From Tepidiformaceae bacterium (GTDB taxonomy: Bacteria > Chloroflexota > Dehalococcoidia > Tepidiformales > Tepidiformaceae), in the NCBI GenBank assembly GCA_958295975.1, contig OY282446.1, positions 721,289 to 785,288 of the forward strand: a stretch of DNA of 64,000 nucleotides, given 5' to 3'. The position numbers were made by a program, and so were the translations under genes. The notes under the pieces are model-generated. The model was not told the DNA's origin, did not search any database, and saw only the letters and a list, made by a program, of their open reading frames with translations. This document shows, piece after piece, positions 28,298-39,108 of this stretch (position 1 is the stretch's first letter; each line of letters starts with the position of its first letter).

Positions 28298-28780
28298 TCA
28301 CGGTACCACCGACTGGCCGCGGGGGGAAGCGGCGGCGCGCACGCGCGCGTCCAACCGCCGCAGGCGCTCCTCCACCCAGACGCCCGGTCGCTCGGCGAGG
28401 ATGCCCGGGGCCTCGAGGTTGTAGCGGTCCTGTCTGGCGCGCAGGGCGCGCGCGGCCTCGGCGAAGGCGCGGCGGCGTTCGGCGATGCGCGGGGCGAGGG
28501 CGCGCCAGCCTCCATCGCCGGCGGCGCGCCGCACGAGGGCCGCGTGCTCGCGCTCGATGTCGTCCAGCCGCGCGGCGTCGCGCTCGATGTCGCGGGCCAG
28601 TTCGAGCCACTCCGGCAGGGCGTTGGCGTTGGCGAGCACATGGTGGGCGAGGCGCAGGTCCCCGGCCAGCCGTCCGGCATCGCGCGGGGGAAGGGGACGG
28701 CCCTCGCCCGCCAAACCCTTGAAGGCGCCCTCCTCCATGGCCCCGAGGATGCGCCGCTCGACGAGCCGCTCGAACCTCAC
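28298..28780 (-). CDS. DUF1992 (DnaJ-homologue subfamily C member 28-like) protein
   Basis: 160 residues from GTG 28780, overlapping the upstream stop by 4 nt. The conserved block (V)RFERLVERRILGAMEEGAF...GEGRPL then ANALPEWLELARDIERD is the DUF1992 domain found in DNAJC28-like proteins. The rest is an Arg-rich helix. Function unknown. Coupled to the sigma-4/winged-helix regulator gene. Confidence 0.85.
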   Translation of the reverse strand: MRFERLVERRILGAMEEGAFKGLAGEGRPLPPRDAGRLAGDLRLAHHVLANANALPEWLELARDIERDAARLDDIEREHAALVRRAAGDGGWRALAPRIAERRRAFAEAARALRARQDRYNLEAPGILAERPGVWVEERLRRLDARVRAAASPRGQSVVP

Positions 28781-30348
28781 GCGGGGGCGACGGCGTCGAG
28801 GGCGGCGAGCACGGCGTCTTCCCCGCGCGCGCGCAGGGTCTCGCGCACGGCGGCGGGCTCCACGCGCAGGGCGGCGGCGAGGGCGTCCAGCGGACGGTCC
28901 CCCGCGTCCGCGCCGAGGGTGAGGCGCAGCCGTTCGGCGCCCGCGGATTCGGCGGGCACGCGCGTGGCGGCGACCGCGCCGCGGGGGGCGTCGAAGTCGA
29001 GGGCGAGGCGGTCGCCGAGCCGCGCGCCGGTCTCCGTGGCGAAGGCCTTGACGCTGCCGATGTTGGGGCCGCTGGGGGAGGCCATGCGCCAGCTGATGCG
29101 GACGCGCGCGCCCGCCTCCGACTCGAACAGCCGCTCCCCGCCGGGCCCCACGCCGAGCGCGGCGGCCACGGGGGCGGGCACCATGCGCCCGGAGCCCCGC
29201 AGCGTGTCGCGGATGACGTCGAGCAGGAAGCGGAGGCGGTCGGGGGAGGGGCGGTAGACGCCGGGGACGGTGAGGGCGTCGGGGAGGGCGAGCTCGACGG
29301 GCTCGCCGGAGCGCAGACGGACGCGCCCCCGGTCCACCACGAAGCGGGGGGCGTTGGCGTAGGCGCGCACCGAGCTTTCGGCCACGGAGAAGCGGTCCGT
29401 GACGTCGATGATGATGTCGAGCATGGAGACCTCGCCGCCGCCGCGGGCGATGATCTCCGCGATCTCGTCGGAGATGCCGCGGTACTCCCGCACGCCCCAG
29501 GCGCGCAGGGCGAAGACGGAGCGGTCGGTGCGGACGAAGCGGCGGTCCTCGGTGAGGCGGTTGCGGAAGCCGCGGCGGGAGCGCGGCTCGTCGATGAGGC
29601 GGAAGATTTCGTCGTCGCTGGCGGGGCGGCCCAGCCAGCGCAGGATGACCTCGGCCTTGTCCGTGAGGCTGGGCGGCCAGGGGAGGAAGGTTTCGCCGAA
29701 GCGCTTCATGCCCTCCGGCGTTTCGTCGAGGAGGGCGGTGACGACGGGCGAGGAGACGGAGGCGGTGGCGAGGGTGGCGCGGGCGTCGCGCAGCGCCAGC
29801 CTGCCCGTGGAGGCGGCCCGTTCGCGCAGGATTTCCAGCAGGGCGTCGGGCGTGACGCCCGCGCGCAGGGCCCAGCCCTCGCCCGCCGCGTCGACCCGCT
29901 TCACGGCCAGGTTGAAGCCCGCGGCCCAGACCGCCGTGCGCCAGAGTTCGGCGCGGGCCTCGGCGGTCAGCCCCAGCCCGGGCGCGTCCAAGGCCGCCAG
30001 CTCGGGCACCTCGGCCAGCCCCGACAGGGGGAAGGCCACGCCGAGGCGGTCGGGCAGCGCGGCGGCCAGTTCGCGGGCGGCGGGATCGTCCTCGAGCTGG
30101 CGGCGCACGCGGCGCTCCGTGCGGCGCTGCAGCTGGCGCACGCGCTCGCGGGTGACGCCGTAGACGCGCCCGATGGCCTCGAGCGTGAGGGGCCCATCGG
30201 ACGGCAGCGGCGACGGCTGGCCGCGCGCGTCGCGGGGCAGGTGGAGGGTGCGGACCGCGAAGATGTGGCGGTCGCGCCGTTCCAGCTGGTCCAGCACGGC
30301 GCTGATGGCGCGGGAGGCCTGGGGCGTCACGGCTGCACAGCGTTGCAC
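28777..30348 (-). CDS. sigma-region-4-like HTH plus winged-helix regulator
   Basis: 523 residues from GTG 30348 (an internal GTG six codons on is possible). Residues about 15-85 match sigma-70 region 4: RDRHIFAVRTLHL, then LTLEAIGRVYGVTRERVRQLQ. Several winged-helix units follow; residues about 270-350 hold two in tandem with EDRRFVRTDRSVFALRAWG and NAPRFVVDRGRVRLR, the HARE-HTH pattern. Region 2 is absent, so it is not a complete sigma factor. It probably binds DNA as a regulator or as part of a defence/DNA-modification-sensing protein; target unknown. Confidence 0.7.
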   Translation of the reverse strand: MQRCAAVTPQASRAISAVLDQLERRDRHIFAVRTLHLPRDARGQPSPLPSDGPLTLEAIGRVYGVTRERVRQLQRRTERRVRRQLEDDPAARELAAALPDRLGVAFPLSGLAEVPELAALDAPGLGLTAEARAELWRTAVWAAGFNLAVKRVDAAGEGWALRAGVTPDALLEILRERAASTGRLALRDARATLATASVSSPVVTALLDETPEGMKRFGETFLPWPPSLTDKAEVILRWLGRPASDDEIFRLIDEPRSRRGFRNRLTEDRRFVRTDRSVFALRAWGVREYRGISDEIAEIIARGGGEVSMLDIIIDVTDRFSVAESSVRAYANAPRFVVDRGRVRLRSGEPVELALPDALTVPGVYRPSPDRLRFLLDVIRDTLRGSGRMVPAPVAAALGVGPGGERLFESEAGARVRISWRMASPSGPNIGSVKAFATETGARLGDRLALDFDAPRGAVAATRVPAESAGAERLRLTLGADAGDRPLDALAAALRVEPAAVRETLRARGEDAVLAALDAVAPA

Positions 30349-30395: not shown

Positions 30396-30539
30396 TCAGT
30401 CGGCGGAGGGGAGCACCTTGGGCTGCATGAGCTCCATGTCGCGCTCATCGACCCTGAGGTCGCAGTCGCCCGCCTTGAGGACCAGCACCTCGATGCCGGT
30501 CTCCTCGTCCTTGTACCGCTTGCCCATCTGCACGGCCAT
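30396..30539 (-). CDS. 47-residue cysteine-poor sibling of the zinc-ribbon protein
   Basis: ATG 30539 with AGGAGG 8 nt upstream. The product MAVQMGKRYKDEETGIEVLV... aligns residue for residue with the neighbour at 30559: GKRY, then a hydrophobic strand, K/RxG, and a final ...ELMQPK versus ...ELKQK. All zinc-ribbon cysteines are replaced (CPKCG becomes DEETG, CG becomes VD), leaving one Cys in GDCDL. So it is a paralogue that has probably lost metal binding. Function unknown. Confidence 0.65.
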   Translation of the reverse strand: MAVQMGKRYKDEETGIEVLVLKAGDCDLRVDERDMELMQPKVLPSAD

Positions 30540-30558: not shown

Positions 30559-30681
30559 CTACTTCTGCTTCAGTTCGAGGGGCGTGTCGCCGCAACGGAG
30601 TTCGCCCTCGCCGCCCCTCGTGACGATGAACTCGGCGCCGCATTTCGGGCAGAGGTAGCGCTTTCCCGTCTGTGCCGCCAT
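30559..30681 (-). CDS. 40-residue desulforedoxin-like zinc-ribbon protein
   Basis: ATG 30681 with AGGAGG 8 nt upstream. The product MAAQTGKRYLCPKCGAEFIV... contains CPKCG and one later Cys in ELRCGD, giving three clear metal-binding cysteines of a rubredoxin/desulforedoxin-like knuckle. It is first gene after a promoter at 30723-30752 and is followed 19 nt later by its cysteine-poor sibling. Possibly a redox or zinc-binding protein. Confidence 0.7.
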   Translation of the reverse strand: MAAQTGKRYLCPKCGAEFIVTRGGEGELRCGDTPLELKQK

Positions 30682-30762: not shown

Positions 30763-32700
30763 CTACTCCTCTTCGACGACGAAGACGACGGCGAGCATGT
30801 CGGCGTGGTAGTCGCAGGTGATGCGGAACTCGCCGGGGGCGTCGAAGGTGAAGGTGCGCACGGTTCCGGCCTGTTCGAGGTCCTCGCCCACCTGCTCGCC
30901 GTCGATGGTGACGGTGTGCAGGCCCTCGACGTTTTCGAATTCGACGGCGGTTCCGGCGAGCACCTTGACGCCCGCGCGGTTGGGGGTTCCGGCCTCGCCG
31001 TCGGCGACGACGGTCCAGTCGTTGGCGTTGGCCAGGATGACGACGTCGGCGGAGACGGCGTCCGGCTCGTCGATCTCGATGGGGCCGCTGCCGATGCCCG
31101 GGAGGGTCTGGAAGGCGCTGGTGGTGAGGGTGTGCTCGACGCAGGCGGTGCCGGGGTTGATCTGGTCGGGCGGGGCCGCGCCCCAGGCGTCGTCGGGGAA
31201 GCGCAGCGTCTTGCCCACGGGCAGGACGGCGTCGGCGGCCACGCCGTTGGCCTCGCCGAGGGTGGCCGCGGTCACGTTGCCGAAGCCGGAGGCGACCTCG
31301 GCGAGGGTGGCGGCGCGCACCACGTAGGCATCGACGGGCGGCAGGGAGATCCAGACCTCGGTGGAGAGCGACCCGACGGCGGTTCCGGCGAGGCCGTTGA
31401 CGTCGAGCAGGGCGGCCACGTCCACGCCGTGGGCGGCGGCGATGGAGGCGAAGGTGTCGCCGAACTGGACGGCGTAGCGCAGGCCCGGGCGCAGGGCCAG
31501 CGCCTGGCCCTCGGCGAGCACGGCGTCCTCGGCGAGGGCGTTGTCCGCGGCCAGCACGGCCACGGGCAGGTCGGTCAGCCCGATCACGGCGCCGCCGCCG
31601 TCCTCGGCCAGCACGGGCAGCAGGTGCGTCTCGGCCACGTCCGCGATGCGCTCGCCCGCGCTCGCCACGTAGATGGCGCCGGACGGCAGCAGGAGCCTGC
31701 GCGCGCCGCCGATCTCGCGGTCGCCCGCGACGTCGCCGACGACCGCGAGCAGGTCGGGGTTGCGGGCGCGGATGTCGTCCGCGCGCACGCCGTGGCGTTC
31801 GGCGATGGCGTCGAGCGTGTCGCCCGCGCGCACGAGCAGGGTGGCGTCGGGCGGCAGGCGCAGCGTGCGGCCGGGCAGCAGGCCGGTGGCGCGGGGGTCG
31901 CCGTCGGGGTTGAGCGCGAGGCGGTCGTCGTCGCCGTCGTAGGGGAGGTAGAAGGCGCCGTCGCCGTCGAAGGCGTGGGCGATGCCGTTGAGCTCGGCGA
32001 TGATGACGGCCCCGACGGAGAGGCGCGCGGCCAGCTTGCGGGGGGTGTCGTTGGCCTCGGCCTTCGTCGTGCGCCCGTCGGGGAGGCGCACGACGCGGCT
32101 CCTGGGGATGGCGTCGTCCATGGAGGCGAAGCCGTTGAGGGCGGCCACCTCGCGCCCGCCCACGCCGTGGGCGTCGGCGATGAGGCCGAGGGTATCGCCC
32201 GTGACGGAGGCGTTCGATTCGTGGTTGAGGTTGTGGGCGAATTCGACGGCGGCCAGCCAGCCGTGGTTGGTGGGGTTGCCGTTGGCGTCGTAGGCGTCCT
32301 CCTCGAGGGGGGCGGTGAGGAGGCGCACGAGGTGGCCGATCTGGTTGGCGGTGAGGCTGCCGCCTTTGGAATCGAGCCAGGCGGGCATGAGCGTGCCCGC
32401 GCGCCCGCATTCGAGCGTGCGGCGGATGAGCTCCTGGTTCTGGCTGAGGACGAGCGGCTCCTGATCGCGGAAGGAGGGCTTGTTGAGCGTGAGGCCGACG
32501 CCGCCCTCGCCGCGGATGCCGTGGCAGGTGCGGCAGTTGTTGGCGTAGAGGAGGGCGCCGCGCTCGATGGACTCGTTCTCGAAGAAGTCGGCCTGGCGCT
32601 GGGCGCGGATGGGCAGGTCGATGGCGGTGTAGGCGGCGCAGCCCGCGACCGTGACGAACATGAGGACGACGACGAGGAAGACCTGCCGCTGCGTGTTCAC
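30763..32700 (-). CDS. cytochrome c - LysM - cupredoxin fusion protein
   Basis: 645 residues from GTG 32700 (GGAGG 5 nt upstream). The N-terminal hydrophobic stretch ends in a lipobox-like VAGC (C21). Residues 45-130 are a monohaem cytochrome c: C56-R-T-C59-H60 and axial Met in TLMP (M105). Residues about 150-520 hold several LysM-like repeats, clearest in RAGDTLDAIAERHGVRADDI and QFGDTFASIAAAHGVDVAAL. Residues about 545-645 form a cupredoxin with type-1 copper ligands H595, C629, H632 and M635 (CDYHADM, amicyanin-type C-x2-H-x2-M). It is last in the cytochrome b/Rieske operon. It probably takes electrons from the complex and passes them on through copper, while LysM binds the cell wall. The fusion is unusual. 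Confidence 0.85.
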   Translation of the reverse strand: MNTQRQVFLVVVLMFVTVAGCAAYTAIDLPIRAQRQADFFENESIERGALLYANNCRTCHGIRGEGGVGLTLNKPSFRDQEPLVLSQNQELIRRTLECGRAGTLMPAWLDSKGGSLTANQIGHLVRLLTAPLEEDAYDANGNPTNHGWLAAVEFAHNLNHESNASVTGDTLGLIADAHGVGGREVAALNGFASMDDAIPRSRVVRLPDGRTTKAEANDTPRKLAARLSVGAVIIAELNGIAHAFDGDGAFYLPYDGDDDRLALNPDGDPRATGLLPGRTLRLPPDATLLVRAGDTLDAIAERHGVRADDIRARNPDLLAVVGDVAGDREIGGARRLLLPSGAIYVASAGERIADVAETHLLPVLAEDGGGAVIGLTDLPVAVLAADNALAEDAVLAEGQALALRPGLRYAVQFGDTFASIAAAHGVDVAALLDVNGLAGTAVGSLSTEVWISLPPVDAYVVRAATLAEVASGFGNVTAATLGEANGVAADAVLPVGKTLRFPDDAWGAAPPDQINPGTACVEHTLTTSAFQTLPGIGSGPIEIDEPDAVSADVVILANANDWTVVADGEAGTPNRAGVKVLAGTAVEFENVEGLHTVTIDGEQVGEDLEQAGTVRTFTFDAPGEFRITCDYHADMLAVVFVVEEE

Positions 32701-32718: not shown

Positions 32719-33312
32719 CTAGCCGCCATAGGGGATCGCCCGCAGGGGATTGGGCGGGTTCCCGCCGAGCGTGATGGCGCGCGTGTTGACCGTGACGGAG
32801 CCGTCGGAGTTCTCGGTCACGAGGAAGGTGTCCATGGGGCGGGGGGCGGGGCCGAAGACGCGCACGCCCGCGCGGGAGTAGGTGGAGCCGTGGCAGGGGC
32901 AGCGGAACCAGCCGACGATGCCGGGGAAGGCCACGGCGGCGCCGTCGAAGTCGCCGCGCCAAGGCACGGTGCAGCCGAGGTGGGGGCACTTCCAGTAGAG
33001 GGCGACGAGGCCGCCCGCGCCGCCCTGACCGAGCACGTCGCCCTCGGCGCCGTCGAGGTTGACCAGCCAGAACTTGCCCTCGGTGATGCGCACGGGCTCG
33101 GCCCCGGGCTCGGGGATCTGGATTTTGGGGACGGTGACGGGGCGGCCGAAGCCGGAGGGGCTGCGCAGGTTGAAGAAGCCGAGGAAGGCGGCGCTGAGGG
33201 CGCCGGTGAAGAGGGTGAGGCCAGCGAAGGCGCTCACGCGCATGAAGGAGCGGCGCGACACCTTGCGCGCCTCCACCTGGCGGGCCTGCTCTATTCGCCG
33301 CGCTTGCGCCAT
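32719..33312 (-). CDS. Rieske iron-sulfur subunit of menaquinol oxidoreductase
   Basis: 197 residues. Twin-arginine N-terminus (SRRSFMRVSAFAGLTLF) with one membrane helix. The [2Fe-2S] ligands are CPHLGC and CPCHGS, including the disulfide cysteines. It is 7 nt downstream of the subunit IV gene and 18 nt upstream of the cytochrome/cupredoxin gene. It carries electrons from quinol at the outer face. The length and ligand set fit QcrA/PetC-type proteins. Confidence 0.93.
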   Translation of the reverse strand: MAQARRIEQARQVEARKVSRRSFMRVSAFAGLTLFTGALSAAFLGFFNLRSPSGFGRPVTVPKIQIPEPGAEPVRITEGKFWLVNLDGAEGDVLGQGGAGGLVALYWKCPHLGCTVPWRGDFDGAAVAFPGIVGWFRCPCHGSTYSRAGVRVFGPAPRPMDTFLVTENSDGSVTVNTRAITLGGNPPNPLRAIPYGG

Positions 33313-33319
33313 CGCCCTC

Positions 33320-34210
33320 TCACTCCTGTCCGGGGATGCCTTCGAGCGTGCGCAGGTCCCAGGGCCAGATGAGGTCCTGGCCGGGGCCGCGGAAGGCGGT
33401 GCCGATGATGGTGAGCATGAGGAACACGCCCACGAAGCCGCTCATGAGGGTGATCAGGGCGTCGCGCCGCGAGAGCACCCAGCCGATGCGCCAGAGGGCG
33501 TAGACGAGCAGGCAGGTGAGGCCCACCATGAAGCCCGCGGGGATGCCGATGTCCACGAGCAGGGTGGGCAGGTCGATCTTCTGGAAGGTGGTGACGCCCG
33601 CGCCCGGGCCTTCATCCAGGATCTTGAGGTTGAACCAGAGGTAGGGGATGGAGCTGGCCCAGTCGGGCCAGGGCACGACGGAGGGGTCCTTGAGGGCGGC
33701 GGAGCGTTCGAGGAAGGCGAGCTGGCCGCCGCCGGAGATGCCGAACCAGTCCTTCAGCCAGAGGGCCACCTTGCCGGAGTTCCAGAGGATGAGGGCGAGC
33801 GTGCCGAAGAAGCCCACGATGAAGGAGACGACGGTGTTGCGGATGGAGTTGGCGTCGGCGAACCAGCGGCCCTGGCCCGCGGTGGACTGGTCGAAGTAGG
33901 GGAAGGCGCCGAGCAGGATGAGCCACACGGTGGGCACGATGATGCCCGCGAGGGCGGGGTTCATGTGGAGCAGCAGCTCCTGCAGGTTGAGCAGGTACCA
34001 GGGGGCCTTGGCCGGGTCGTTGGTGACGTTGGCGTTGGCCTCGTCGAGGAGGGGGGCGTTCATGGCGAAGGAGAGGAAGAAGAGGGCGACGGTGAAGAGC
34101 AGGGCGGAGACGAACTCGACGAAGACGAGGTCGGGCCAGACGAGCACCTCCTCGTCGCGGGCGCGCGGCGTGGGGCGCAGGGCGGGGCGGGCGACGACGA
34201 CGGCGGCCAT
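33320..34210 (-). CDS. cytochrome b subunit IV-like protein (PetD/QcrC-like)
   Basis: 296 residues. The block PWYLLNLQELLLHMNPALAG corresponds to the quinol-site region of subunit IV (PEWY-like loop region), followed by helices F-G. Extra hydrophobic segments at the C-terminal end (about residues 205-275) make it longer than plant PetD (about 160). It forms the second half of a split cytochrome b together with the upstream b6-like subunit. Confidence 0.88.
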   Translation of the reverse strand: MAAVVVARPALRPTPRARDEEVLVWPDLVFVEFVSALLFTVALFFLSFAMNAPLLDEANANVTNDPAKAPWYLLNLQELLLHMNPALAGIIVPTVWLILLGAFPYFDQSTAGQGRWFADANSIRNTVVSFIVGFFGTLALILWNSGKVALWLKDWFGISGGGQLAFLERSAALKDPSVVPWPDWASSIPYLWFNLKILDEGPGAGVTTFQKIDLPTLLVDIGIPAGFMVGLTCLLVYALWRIGWVLSRRDALITLMSGFVGVFLMLTIIGTAFRGPGQDLIWPWDLRTLEGIPGQE

Positions 34211-34231: not shown

Positions 34232-34984
34232 CTACAGGGGCCGCGCCAGGCCGCCGTCGCGCCGGATGCGCCAGAAGTGGACGGCCATGAAGATGGCGGC
34301 CAGCAGGGGCAGGCCGATGACGTGCAGGGTGTAGAAGCGGATGAGGGCGTCGGGGCCGACCTCGAAGCCGCCCAGCAGCCAGAACTTCGTCTTGGGGCCG
34401 AGCACGGGGGCGGAGCCCGCGATGTTGGTGCCCACCGTGATGGCCCAGAAGGCCAGCTGGTCCCAGGGCAGCAGGTAGCCCGTGAAGCTGAGCAGGAAGG
34501 TGAGCACCAGCAGGACGACGCCGACCACCCAGTTGAATTCGCGCGGGGGCTTGTAGGCCCCGGTGTAGAAGACGCGCAGCATGTGCAGGAAGACGAGGAT
34601 GACCATGGCGTGGGCCATCCAGCGGTGCATGTTGCGCATGAGCTGGCCGAACTGGACGTTCGTCTGGATGTTCTGGATGTCGAGGTAGGCGCGGTCCACG
34701 CTGGGCACGTAGTAGAACATGAGCAGGATGCCGGTGACGGTGAGCCCCAGGAACATGAAGAAGGTGAGGCCGCCGAGGCAGTAGGTGTGCGTGATCTTGA
34801 CGTGCGTGCGGTGGATGCGCGTGGGGTGCAGGTGGAGGAAGACGTTGGTGGCGACCACCAGCATCTGGTTGCGGGGCGTGTTGGGATAGCCCGTGCGGAA
34901 GATCGAGCGCCACAGGTAGTTGTGGAAGAGCTTGTCGTAGATGCGGTCGCCGAGGGTCGGCTGGGCGGGCTGCTCGAGGGCCAT
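34232..34984 (-). CDS. b6-type cytochrome b with heme c_i cysteine
   Basis: 250 residues from ATG 34984; GGGAG lies 10 nt upstream inside the end of the small membrane ORF. Four helices. Bis-His heme ligands occur in two helices: [18 protein letters not shown] (H...H 14 apart) and [19 protein letters not shown] (15 apart), the b6-type spacing. C69 in [14 protein letters not shown] aligns with the b6 cysteine that covalently holds heme c_i (c_n). So this is the N-terminal half of a b6f/menaquinol-type complex rather than a full-length mitochondrial-type cytochrome b. Confidence 0.93.
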
Positions 34985-37787: not shown

Positions 37788-37860
37788 GCCGCCGCTTGCG
37801 CGGGACGCGCGGCGCCGCGAGACTTATGTGCCCTTGCGGACAGCCCCTCCGAACGAAGCC

Positions 37861-39108
37861 ATGTCCATGAACGCGAACGAAGCGGCCACCAGCTCCGCGA
37901 ACGCGGGCCCGACGGCGGCCTACGGCGGCGACGGGCGGGAACGTCCGGCCGCGCGCTCGCACGCCCACGGACACGTGGGGATGCGCGCGGCGCTGCACCT
38001 GCTGATGGTGGCGCTGGCCGCGCTCGGCGCGCTGGCGGCGGCGAGCCTGACGGGCGAGGAGGCGGCGCCGTTCGTGACCTCCGTGCCGCCCGCGCCGCTC
38101 TCCGGCGTGCGCGCCATCGAACGCGCGGCCGAGGCCCTCCTGCGGCCGGGCGGGGGGCTGGGGACGGAGGAATCGCCGCTGCGCTCGGCCCCGTCCGCGC
38201 GGGCGGTGGGGGGGGACGACGGCCTGCGCCTCACGGAGAACATCAGCCCGGAGTCGTCGCTGAGCGCGGGCACGGTGTTCGCGGCCAGCGGCGGCGGGGC
38301 GCTGGCCGACCTGATCGACCCGCTCCTGCCGCACGCCTACCACACCACCCGCGCGGGGGACACGATCGCGGGGCTGGCCGCCAGCTACGGGATCCTCGAG
38401 GAGACGATCCTCGACAACAACCTCGAGGCGCACGACGACCATCTGGATGAGGGGCAGGTGCTCCTCATCCCGCTGCAGGACGGCATCCTGCATTCGGTGG
38501 CGCAGGGCGAGACGCTCTCCTCCATCGTCGAGCAGTACGACAACATCGACGCGGACACGATCACGGAATTCCGCCCGAACAACCTGTTCGACGGGCGGGA
38601 GCTGGCGGCGGGGACGTACGTGCTGCTGCCGGGCGCGGAGCGCAAGCCGCCCCCCCCGCCGCCGGTGGTGGAGGGCAACGGCAACTGGTACGGCCCGCCG
38701 CCGCCCACGGACAGCACGTTCGGGCTGCCGCTGGCGGGCTGGAACGCGATCACGGACACCTTCGGCACCTACCGCGGCGAGGGCCGCATCCACGAGGGCA
38801 TCGACCTCGGCCTGTGGGGCTACTGGAAGTCGCCCATCTTCGCCAGCTGCTCCGGCACCGTGACGCGCGTGGAGTGGTGGAACTACAGCTACGGCTACCA
38901 CGTGATCGTCGATTGCGGCGACGGCTGGGAGACGCTCTACGCCCACTTCAGCGACATCTCCGTGGTCTGGGGCCAGTGGGTGGAGCAGGGCGAGGTGCTC
39001 GGCATCTCCGGCTCGACGGGCTTCAGCACGGGCGAGCACCTGCACTTCGAGATCCGCCACGGGGGCGTGCCCCACGACCCGGCGCAGTACATCGACTTCT
39101 CCCCGTAA
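37861..39108 (+). CDS. LysM-containing M23 endopeptidase
   Basis: 415 residues from ATG 37861 (GTG 37828 possible). A membrane helix or signal lies near residues 41-65 (HLLMVALAALGALAAASL). Two LysM domains follow (RAGDTIAGLAASYGILEETI; AQGETLSSIVEQYDNIDADT), then a Pro run and the LytM/M23 domain: HEGIDLG (zinc His/Asp), LYAHFS and GEHLHFEIRHGG. It is expected to cut peptidoglycan cross-links outside the membrane. Convergent with the sortase gene (11 nt apart). Confidence 0.92.
   Translation: MSMNANEAATSSANAGPTAAYGGDGRERPAARSHAHGHVGMRAALHLLMVALAALGALAAASLTGEEAAPFVTSVPPAPLSGVRAIERAAEALLRPGGGLGTEESPLRSAPSARAVGGDDGLRLTENISPESSLSAGTVFAASGGGALADLIDPLLPHAYHTTRAGDTIAGLAASYGILEETILDNNLEAHDDHLDEGQVLLIPLQDGILHSVAQGETLSSIVEQYDNIDADTITEFRPNNLFDGRELAAGTYVLLPGAERKPPPPPPVVEGNGNWYGPPPPTDSTFGLPLAGWNAITDTFGTYRGEGRIHEGIDLGLWGYWKSPIFASCSGTVTRVEWWNYSYGYHVIVDCGDGWETLYAHFSDISVVWGQWVEQGEVLGISGSTGFSTGEHLHFEIRHGGVPHDPAQYIDFSP

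Follow-up and report, generated by a model that had tools for sequence, protein, structure and literature searches.

In the usual picture of a respiratory chain, complex III and the oxidase are linked by a small mobile carrier, and the locus analyzed here raises the question of how electrons would leave a cytochrome bc complex whose operon encodes heme c and blue copper in one chain. The window, i.e. the whole stretch of 64,000 nucleotides from a Tepidiformaceae genome that was analyzed, contains a complete open reading frame with a GTG start whose product joins a cytochrome c domain, LysM repeats and a blue-copper domain (Table 1). This single polypeptide was found exactly as the initial annotation had described it, and its placing of the gene last in an operon, after b6-type cytochrome b, subunit IV and the Rieske protein, was borne out by Pfam and by the gene order. 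The gaps in the operon are about 7-21 bp and the fusion gene lies tight behind the Rieske gene; the cytochrome b6-type gene probably starts later than at the listed TTG (35080), and many relatives have 250 aa. The Rfam search of the window gave no match. The fusion gene stands where the cytochrome subunit is ordinarily encoded in a bc operon, and its build is unusual.

Table 1. Features of the cytochrome bc operon and of the fusion protein (window positions, strand in brackets).
Feature	Position	Size or residues	Remarks
Fusion gene	30763..32700 (-)	645 aa	Anchor, cytochrome c, six LysM-like repeats and cupredoxin; fourth gene of the cytochrome bc operon
Anchor or lipoprotein signal	32581..32700 (-)	1-40	VAGC21; assigned from sequence
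Class I cytochrome c domain	32311..32580 (-)	41-130	C56, C59, H60, axial M105; extra invariant C98
Six LysM-like units	31198..32217 (-)	162-501	162-206, 211-283, 286-338, 342-403, 407-453, 458-501
C520	31141..31143 (-)	520	Invariant cysteine directly before the cupredoxin; proposed disulfide partner of C98
Cupredoxin	30766..31068 (-)	545-645	Predicted type-1 copper ligands H595, C629, H632, M635
Rieske iron-sulfur protein	32719..33312 (-)	197 aa	PF00355, E 5.8e-7
Subunit IV-like (PetD)	33320..34210 (-)	296 aa	PF00032, 17.6 bits, below the cut-off of 20.7; conserved position
Cytochrome b6-type subunit	34232..34984 (-)	250 aa	PF00033, E 1.7e-48; ExtP-like, 299.8 bits, over the cut-off of 290

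The first 40 residues of the fusion protein are hydrophobic and lipobox-like, and the VAGC21 cysteine is kept in 25/25 readable family sequences; since most sister families do not have this cysteine, a plain membrane anchor is equally possible. In the Pfam search of all 645 residues, Cytochrome_CBB3 (PF13442, E 5.8e-7), Cytochrom_C (PF00034, E 2.7e-5) and LysM (E 3.3e-25, 88.2 bits vs a cut-off of 20.9, four stretches) passed the cut-offs, and Cupredoxin_1 (E 0.27) stayed under its own. The N-terminal part is a membrane-anchored c-type heme domain with CXXCH, invariant in 26 sequences, and a distal Met (M105, 25/26). Its fold search returned mostly cytochromes c with a best Z of only 4.5, and the domain was modelled poorly without heme, so that the cytochrome c assignment rests on sequence. 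LysM domains were found at E <= 0.01 in 26/26 family sequences, and the predicted model has six beta-alpha-alpha-beta units, which agrees with the four Pfam stretches; the unit boundaries are our own reading. The weak Pfam assignment of the copper domain was settled by the predicted structure: AlphaFold2 with 26 sequences gave residues 545-645 at a pLDDT of about 90, and this model aligned with plastocyanin (1bxu, Z 11.3, 1.8 A, 81 residues aligned) and amicyanin (Z 9.8), further structural matches, Foldseek included, comprising among others 6hbe and 2dv6. H595, C629 and H632 are each present in 26/26 sequences and M635 in 25/26 (Gln in one), with a C-x2-H-x2-M spacing, as in the ligand loop of amicyanin. 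Judged from the model, which has the cupredoxin beta-sandwich with its His, Cys, His and axial Met, the C-terminal domain is a plastocyanin/amicyanin-like cupredoxin with a predicted type-1 copper. The CXXCH with its Met ligand, the LysM-like repeats in mid-chain, the complete copper ligand set and the cupredoxin folding of the C-terminal region, as proposed initially, all agree with these results. A CuA domain was considered and rejected: weak CuA sequence matches exist, but the domain has one ligand cysteine only, and the second cysteine of the binuclear C-x3-C motif is absent.

Among 60 relatives, the nearest kin of the genome fall in one family, whose loci include the cultured Tepidiforma flava together with many Dehalococcoidia metagenome genomes; from these kin the organism is placed in Tepidiformaceae, class Dehalococcoidia. 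Relatives of the fusion were present in 34/35 Tepidiformaceae genomes, several of them complete; the one genome without a relative is 81% complete. Where contig ends permit, nearly all of the relatives are single open frames of full length, and the order cytochrome b, subunit IV, Rieske, fusion gene was found in every family locus with readable flanks. Class-wide relatives likewise stand behind petB-petD-Rieske. In the survey of 245 Dehalococcoidia genomes, 99 had a match at E 1e-12 or better, which outside the family covers only about the first 110-230 residues; the search of plasmid records gave no relative. Of the 61 out-of-family proteins that we read, six were repeats, and the set held 45 distinct carriers of C98: the terminal module is a cupredoxin (one or two) in 31 and a second cytochrome c in 8, and the other 6 have no such module or a short tail. 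The fourth bc-complex subunit keeps its cytochrome c across Dehalococcoidia while the terminal module varies, and heme and copper in one chain are common across the class. The initial annotation had regarded the heme-c partner and the cupredoxin as normally separate proteins; they are indeed fused here, but the fusion is common in the class and only the LysM insert, found in 1/40 sequences scanned across the class (the window's own), is special to the family Tepidiformaceae.

In the tree of the bc complex, built from cytochrome b, subunit IV and Rieske (727 columns) with the trait-bearing fusion gene left out, the terminal state (copper, heme or none) changes at least 5 times, a rough count by a quick method with long branches present, and LysM arises once, as one clade (100). 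That copper and heme replace one another at a single position points to a shared electron-carrying role of the terminal domain and is our strongest argument for it. In another Dehalococcoidia lineage (L087:6001-8274, L088, L089, L091, L092, L154), roughly 430-510 residues of a different repeat (LRLGSELVRV...VERG) occupy the insert position and are followed by a sulfocyanin-like domain.

The variable insert lies between two extra cysteines, C98 and C520, neither of which changes within the family. Outside it, the first cysteine lies in a CGR..MP motif adjoining the heme Met ligand in 51/61 proteins read (45 after repeats were removed), and every member with C98 has a second extra cysteine, at any linker length and even without a terminal domain; it immediately precedes the terminal module or, if there is none, lies close to the end, at a spacing of about 65 to about 510 residues from the first. 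The diheme RGR/TGR relatives have no C98 and no matching partner site, bar an isolated cysteine close to the end of one 228-aa frame. From this pattern in the sequences we infer that a C98-C520 disulfide may close the variable insert as a loop. The co-occurrence counts once, because the pair is a single gain on the bc-complex tree, and VKOR, which was looked for in the genome and not found but is present in some relatives, gives no support for disulfide formation. One clade without a terminal carrier (L036, L142, L149, L160, L161, L166) keeps the second extra cysteine near the C-terminus.

When PF13442 and PF00034 were each searched in the 2.4-Mb single-contig genome, no match besides the fusion protein was obtained. 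Small separate cytochromes c were looked for and not found in 8 family genomes, where the only other cytochrome c match lies in a frame of 784-918 aa; in the Tepidiforma-like G020, we read this frame as a large membrane protein, similar to CopC/CopD, that ends in a cytochrome c. The lack of a detectable separate cytochrome c fits a carrier built into the complex, and tethered transfer is proposed because no cytochrome c other than the fusion was detected in the genome. One oxidase cluster was found, with COX2 (CuA motif, no fused heme), COX1, COX3 and a 397-aa membrane cupredoxin protein.

We therefore propose, with somewhat more confidence than doubt, that the fusion protein would serve as fourth subunit in a quinol-oxidising complex of the cytochrome b6 type and would bear the complex's own terminal electron carrier. 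Quinol would be oxidised at cytochrome b, and one electron would pass to the Rieske cluster and on to the membrane-anchored heme c. The heme would reduce the blue-copper domain at the C-terminus of its own chain, and this domain would supply CuA of the aa3-type oxidase, either directly or through one short step. The LysM insert between the heme and copper domains would dock to peptidoglycan and keep the complex or its arm at the wall, and the C98-C520 disulfide would staple the insert loop and so keep the copper domain next to the heme. A relay of this kind is likely, and the electrons probably reach the oxygen-reducing enzyme over this tether and not by a free-floating cytochrome c. The fullest form of the idea is a tentative one, namely that complex III is pinned to peptidoglycan by its own carrier, in which the disulfide-closed LysM loop keeps the heme next to the blue copper at the wall; the lineage would have no separate cytochrome c, while its sister lineages swap copper and heme freely.

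The part of the LysM repeats in this proposal has to be weighed against a simpler role, in which the relay is right but the repeats are a mere spacer that sets the reach of a swinging copper domain and do not bind the wall. In sister families the stretch between the two extra cysteines is filled by unrelated linkers that reach about 510 residues, one example being the repeat-rich insert of L087. The length of the LysM insert varies, and the mean majority fraction of LysM units 3-5 (0.30-0.49) is low against that of the cytochrome (0.77). On the other hand, units 1, 2 and 6 are better conserved (0.53-0.60), LysM is recognisable in all 26 family members scanned, another LysM protein of the window is an M23 cell-wall peptidase, and the family includes a cultured group with proven peptidoglycan. 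Tepidiforma is the one cultured group of the class with such proof, together with a periplasm of about 40 nm and a positive oxidase reaction; the main text of the same paper makes no mention of cytochromes (PMC10284905). Tethering to the wall is possible because peptidoglycan has been proven in these strains and the genome holds peptidoglycan synthesis genes (three Mur ligases). Wall docking is, nevertheless, not needed for function, because peptidoglycan-making relatives in other families have no LysM. We regard the docking of the insert to peptidoglycan as putative, and the spacer role as possible but rather doubtful.

A second alternative concerns the last step, and it bears on the wall-tethered relay in place of a soluble carrier that the initial annotation had proposed. 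Of that claim, heme and blue copper in one chain with a bc complex hold, and a separate cytochrome c is missing from the genome, but other cupredoxins are not: besides the 397-aa protein, a 117-aa cupredoxin with a lipoprotein-like signal is encoded elsewhere. The fused cupredoxin might hand its electrons to either of these two, which would then feed CuA; both have His and Cys-x2-His-Met type motifs, and small cupredoxins are found repeatedly in the genus. Neither gene belongs to the bc operon, however, and the fused domain has a full ligand set and a place that cytochrome c takes in sister families, so that we judge a later carrier to be on the unlikely side, although the 397-aa protein is a possible oxidase-side partner of the relay. 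This membrane protein (L125:6553-7743, minus strand; genome 1964552-1965742) has its cupredoxin at the C-terminus and is the fourth gene of the aa3 oxidase cluster.

A role of the copper domain in storing, delivering or sensing copper, e.g. in loading CuA, without a respiratory electron role, is improbable. Copper-site assembly factors are often near oxidases, and both the Pfam score under the cut-off and the weak matches to CuA domains would agree with copper handling, but the complete type-1 ligand set with an amicyanin-like loop, the plastocyanin fold and the replacement of the domain by cytochrome c in sister lineages argue against it. The chance that the gene is a chimera or an assembly join of neighbouring genes, as the initial annotation had considered, or a frameshift, any of which the unusual domain order might suggest, is practically nil, because the independent assemblies of the 34/35 family genomes, complete genomes and a named isolate included, share an identical domain order, with the same gene order at readable loci.

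The built-in carrier proposed here resembles several known systems in part. QcrC of actinobacterial bc1-aa3 supercomplexes is a built-in second carrier in a bc complex that replaces soluble cytochrome c, and it was a weak database match to the locus; QcrC has two hemes c, whereas the fusion has one CXXCH, with LysM repeats separating it from a second centre of blue copper. A minority of Dehalococcoidia are like QcrC, with a second heme in the place of the copper domain. In the SoxM-type bc/oxidase supercomplex of Sulfolobus, which has a Rieske/cytochrome b chain, the cupredoxin sulfocyanin is the carrier to CuA, and some of the sister proteins likewise end in a sulfocyanin-like domain; the Sulfolobus sulfocyanin is, unlike the fusion, a separate subunit without a fused cytochrome c. 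The b6, subunit IV and Rieske genes, and plastocyanin as the nearest fold of the copper domain, recall cytochrome b6f and plastocyanin, but plastocyanin is soluble and cytochrome f has another fold, while the fusion holds both centres in one chain and its cytochrome c is of class I. Three-domain copper nitrite reductases with a tethered cytochrome c or cupredoxin also fuse a redox partner to its acceptor (PMC13324648, PMC6400189), and the copper-domain matches 6hbe and 2dv6 are a further point of likeness, but they are enzymes with a type-2 copper site, and the fusion has no catalytic domain and lies in a bc operon. The C1-C2-NirS fusions of Chloroflexi (PMC8756737), from the same phylum, likewise join cytochrome c and copper domains; unlike the fusion, they are nitrite reductases without LysM and outside a bc operon. 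The literature searched, which did not take in most subscription papers, contained no description of the fusion architecture, and this is weak evidence of novelty.

It seems that in much of Dehalococcoidia complex III has acquired a fused carrier in which heme and copper were exchanged repeatedly in the same slot, a natural experiment on the requirements of a terminal carrier. In one family, LysM repeats threaded through the carrier would tie respiration physically to the wall. The relay idea is testable because cultured, oxidase-positive Tepidiforma strains exist (PMC10284905).

Other open reading frames were also observed in the window. The LysM and peptidase M23 protein at 37828-39108 (+) is secreted and likely a cell-wall hydrolase. 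Further, a 523-aa protein (28777-30348, -) has sigma-70 region 4 at its N-terminus as the only assigned part of its length. Two tandem ORFs of 40 and 47 aa (30559-30681 and 30396-30539, both -) share the same start (MA.Q.GKRY); the first resembles a desulforedoxin cysteine ribbon (PF06397, E 1.5e-4, narrowly below the cut-off), and the second is apparently a copy of it in which most of the cysteines are gone.
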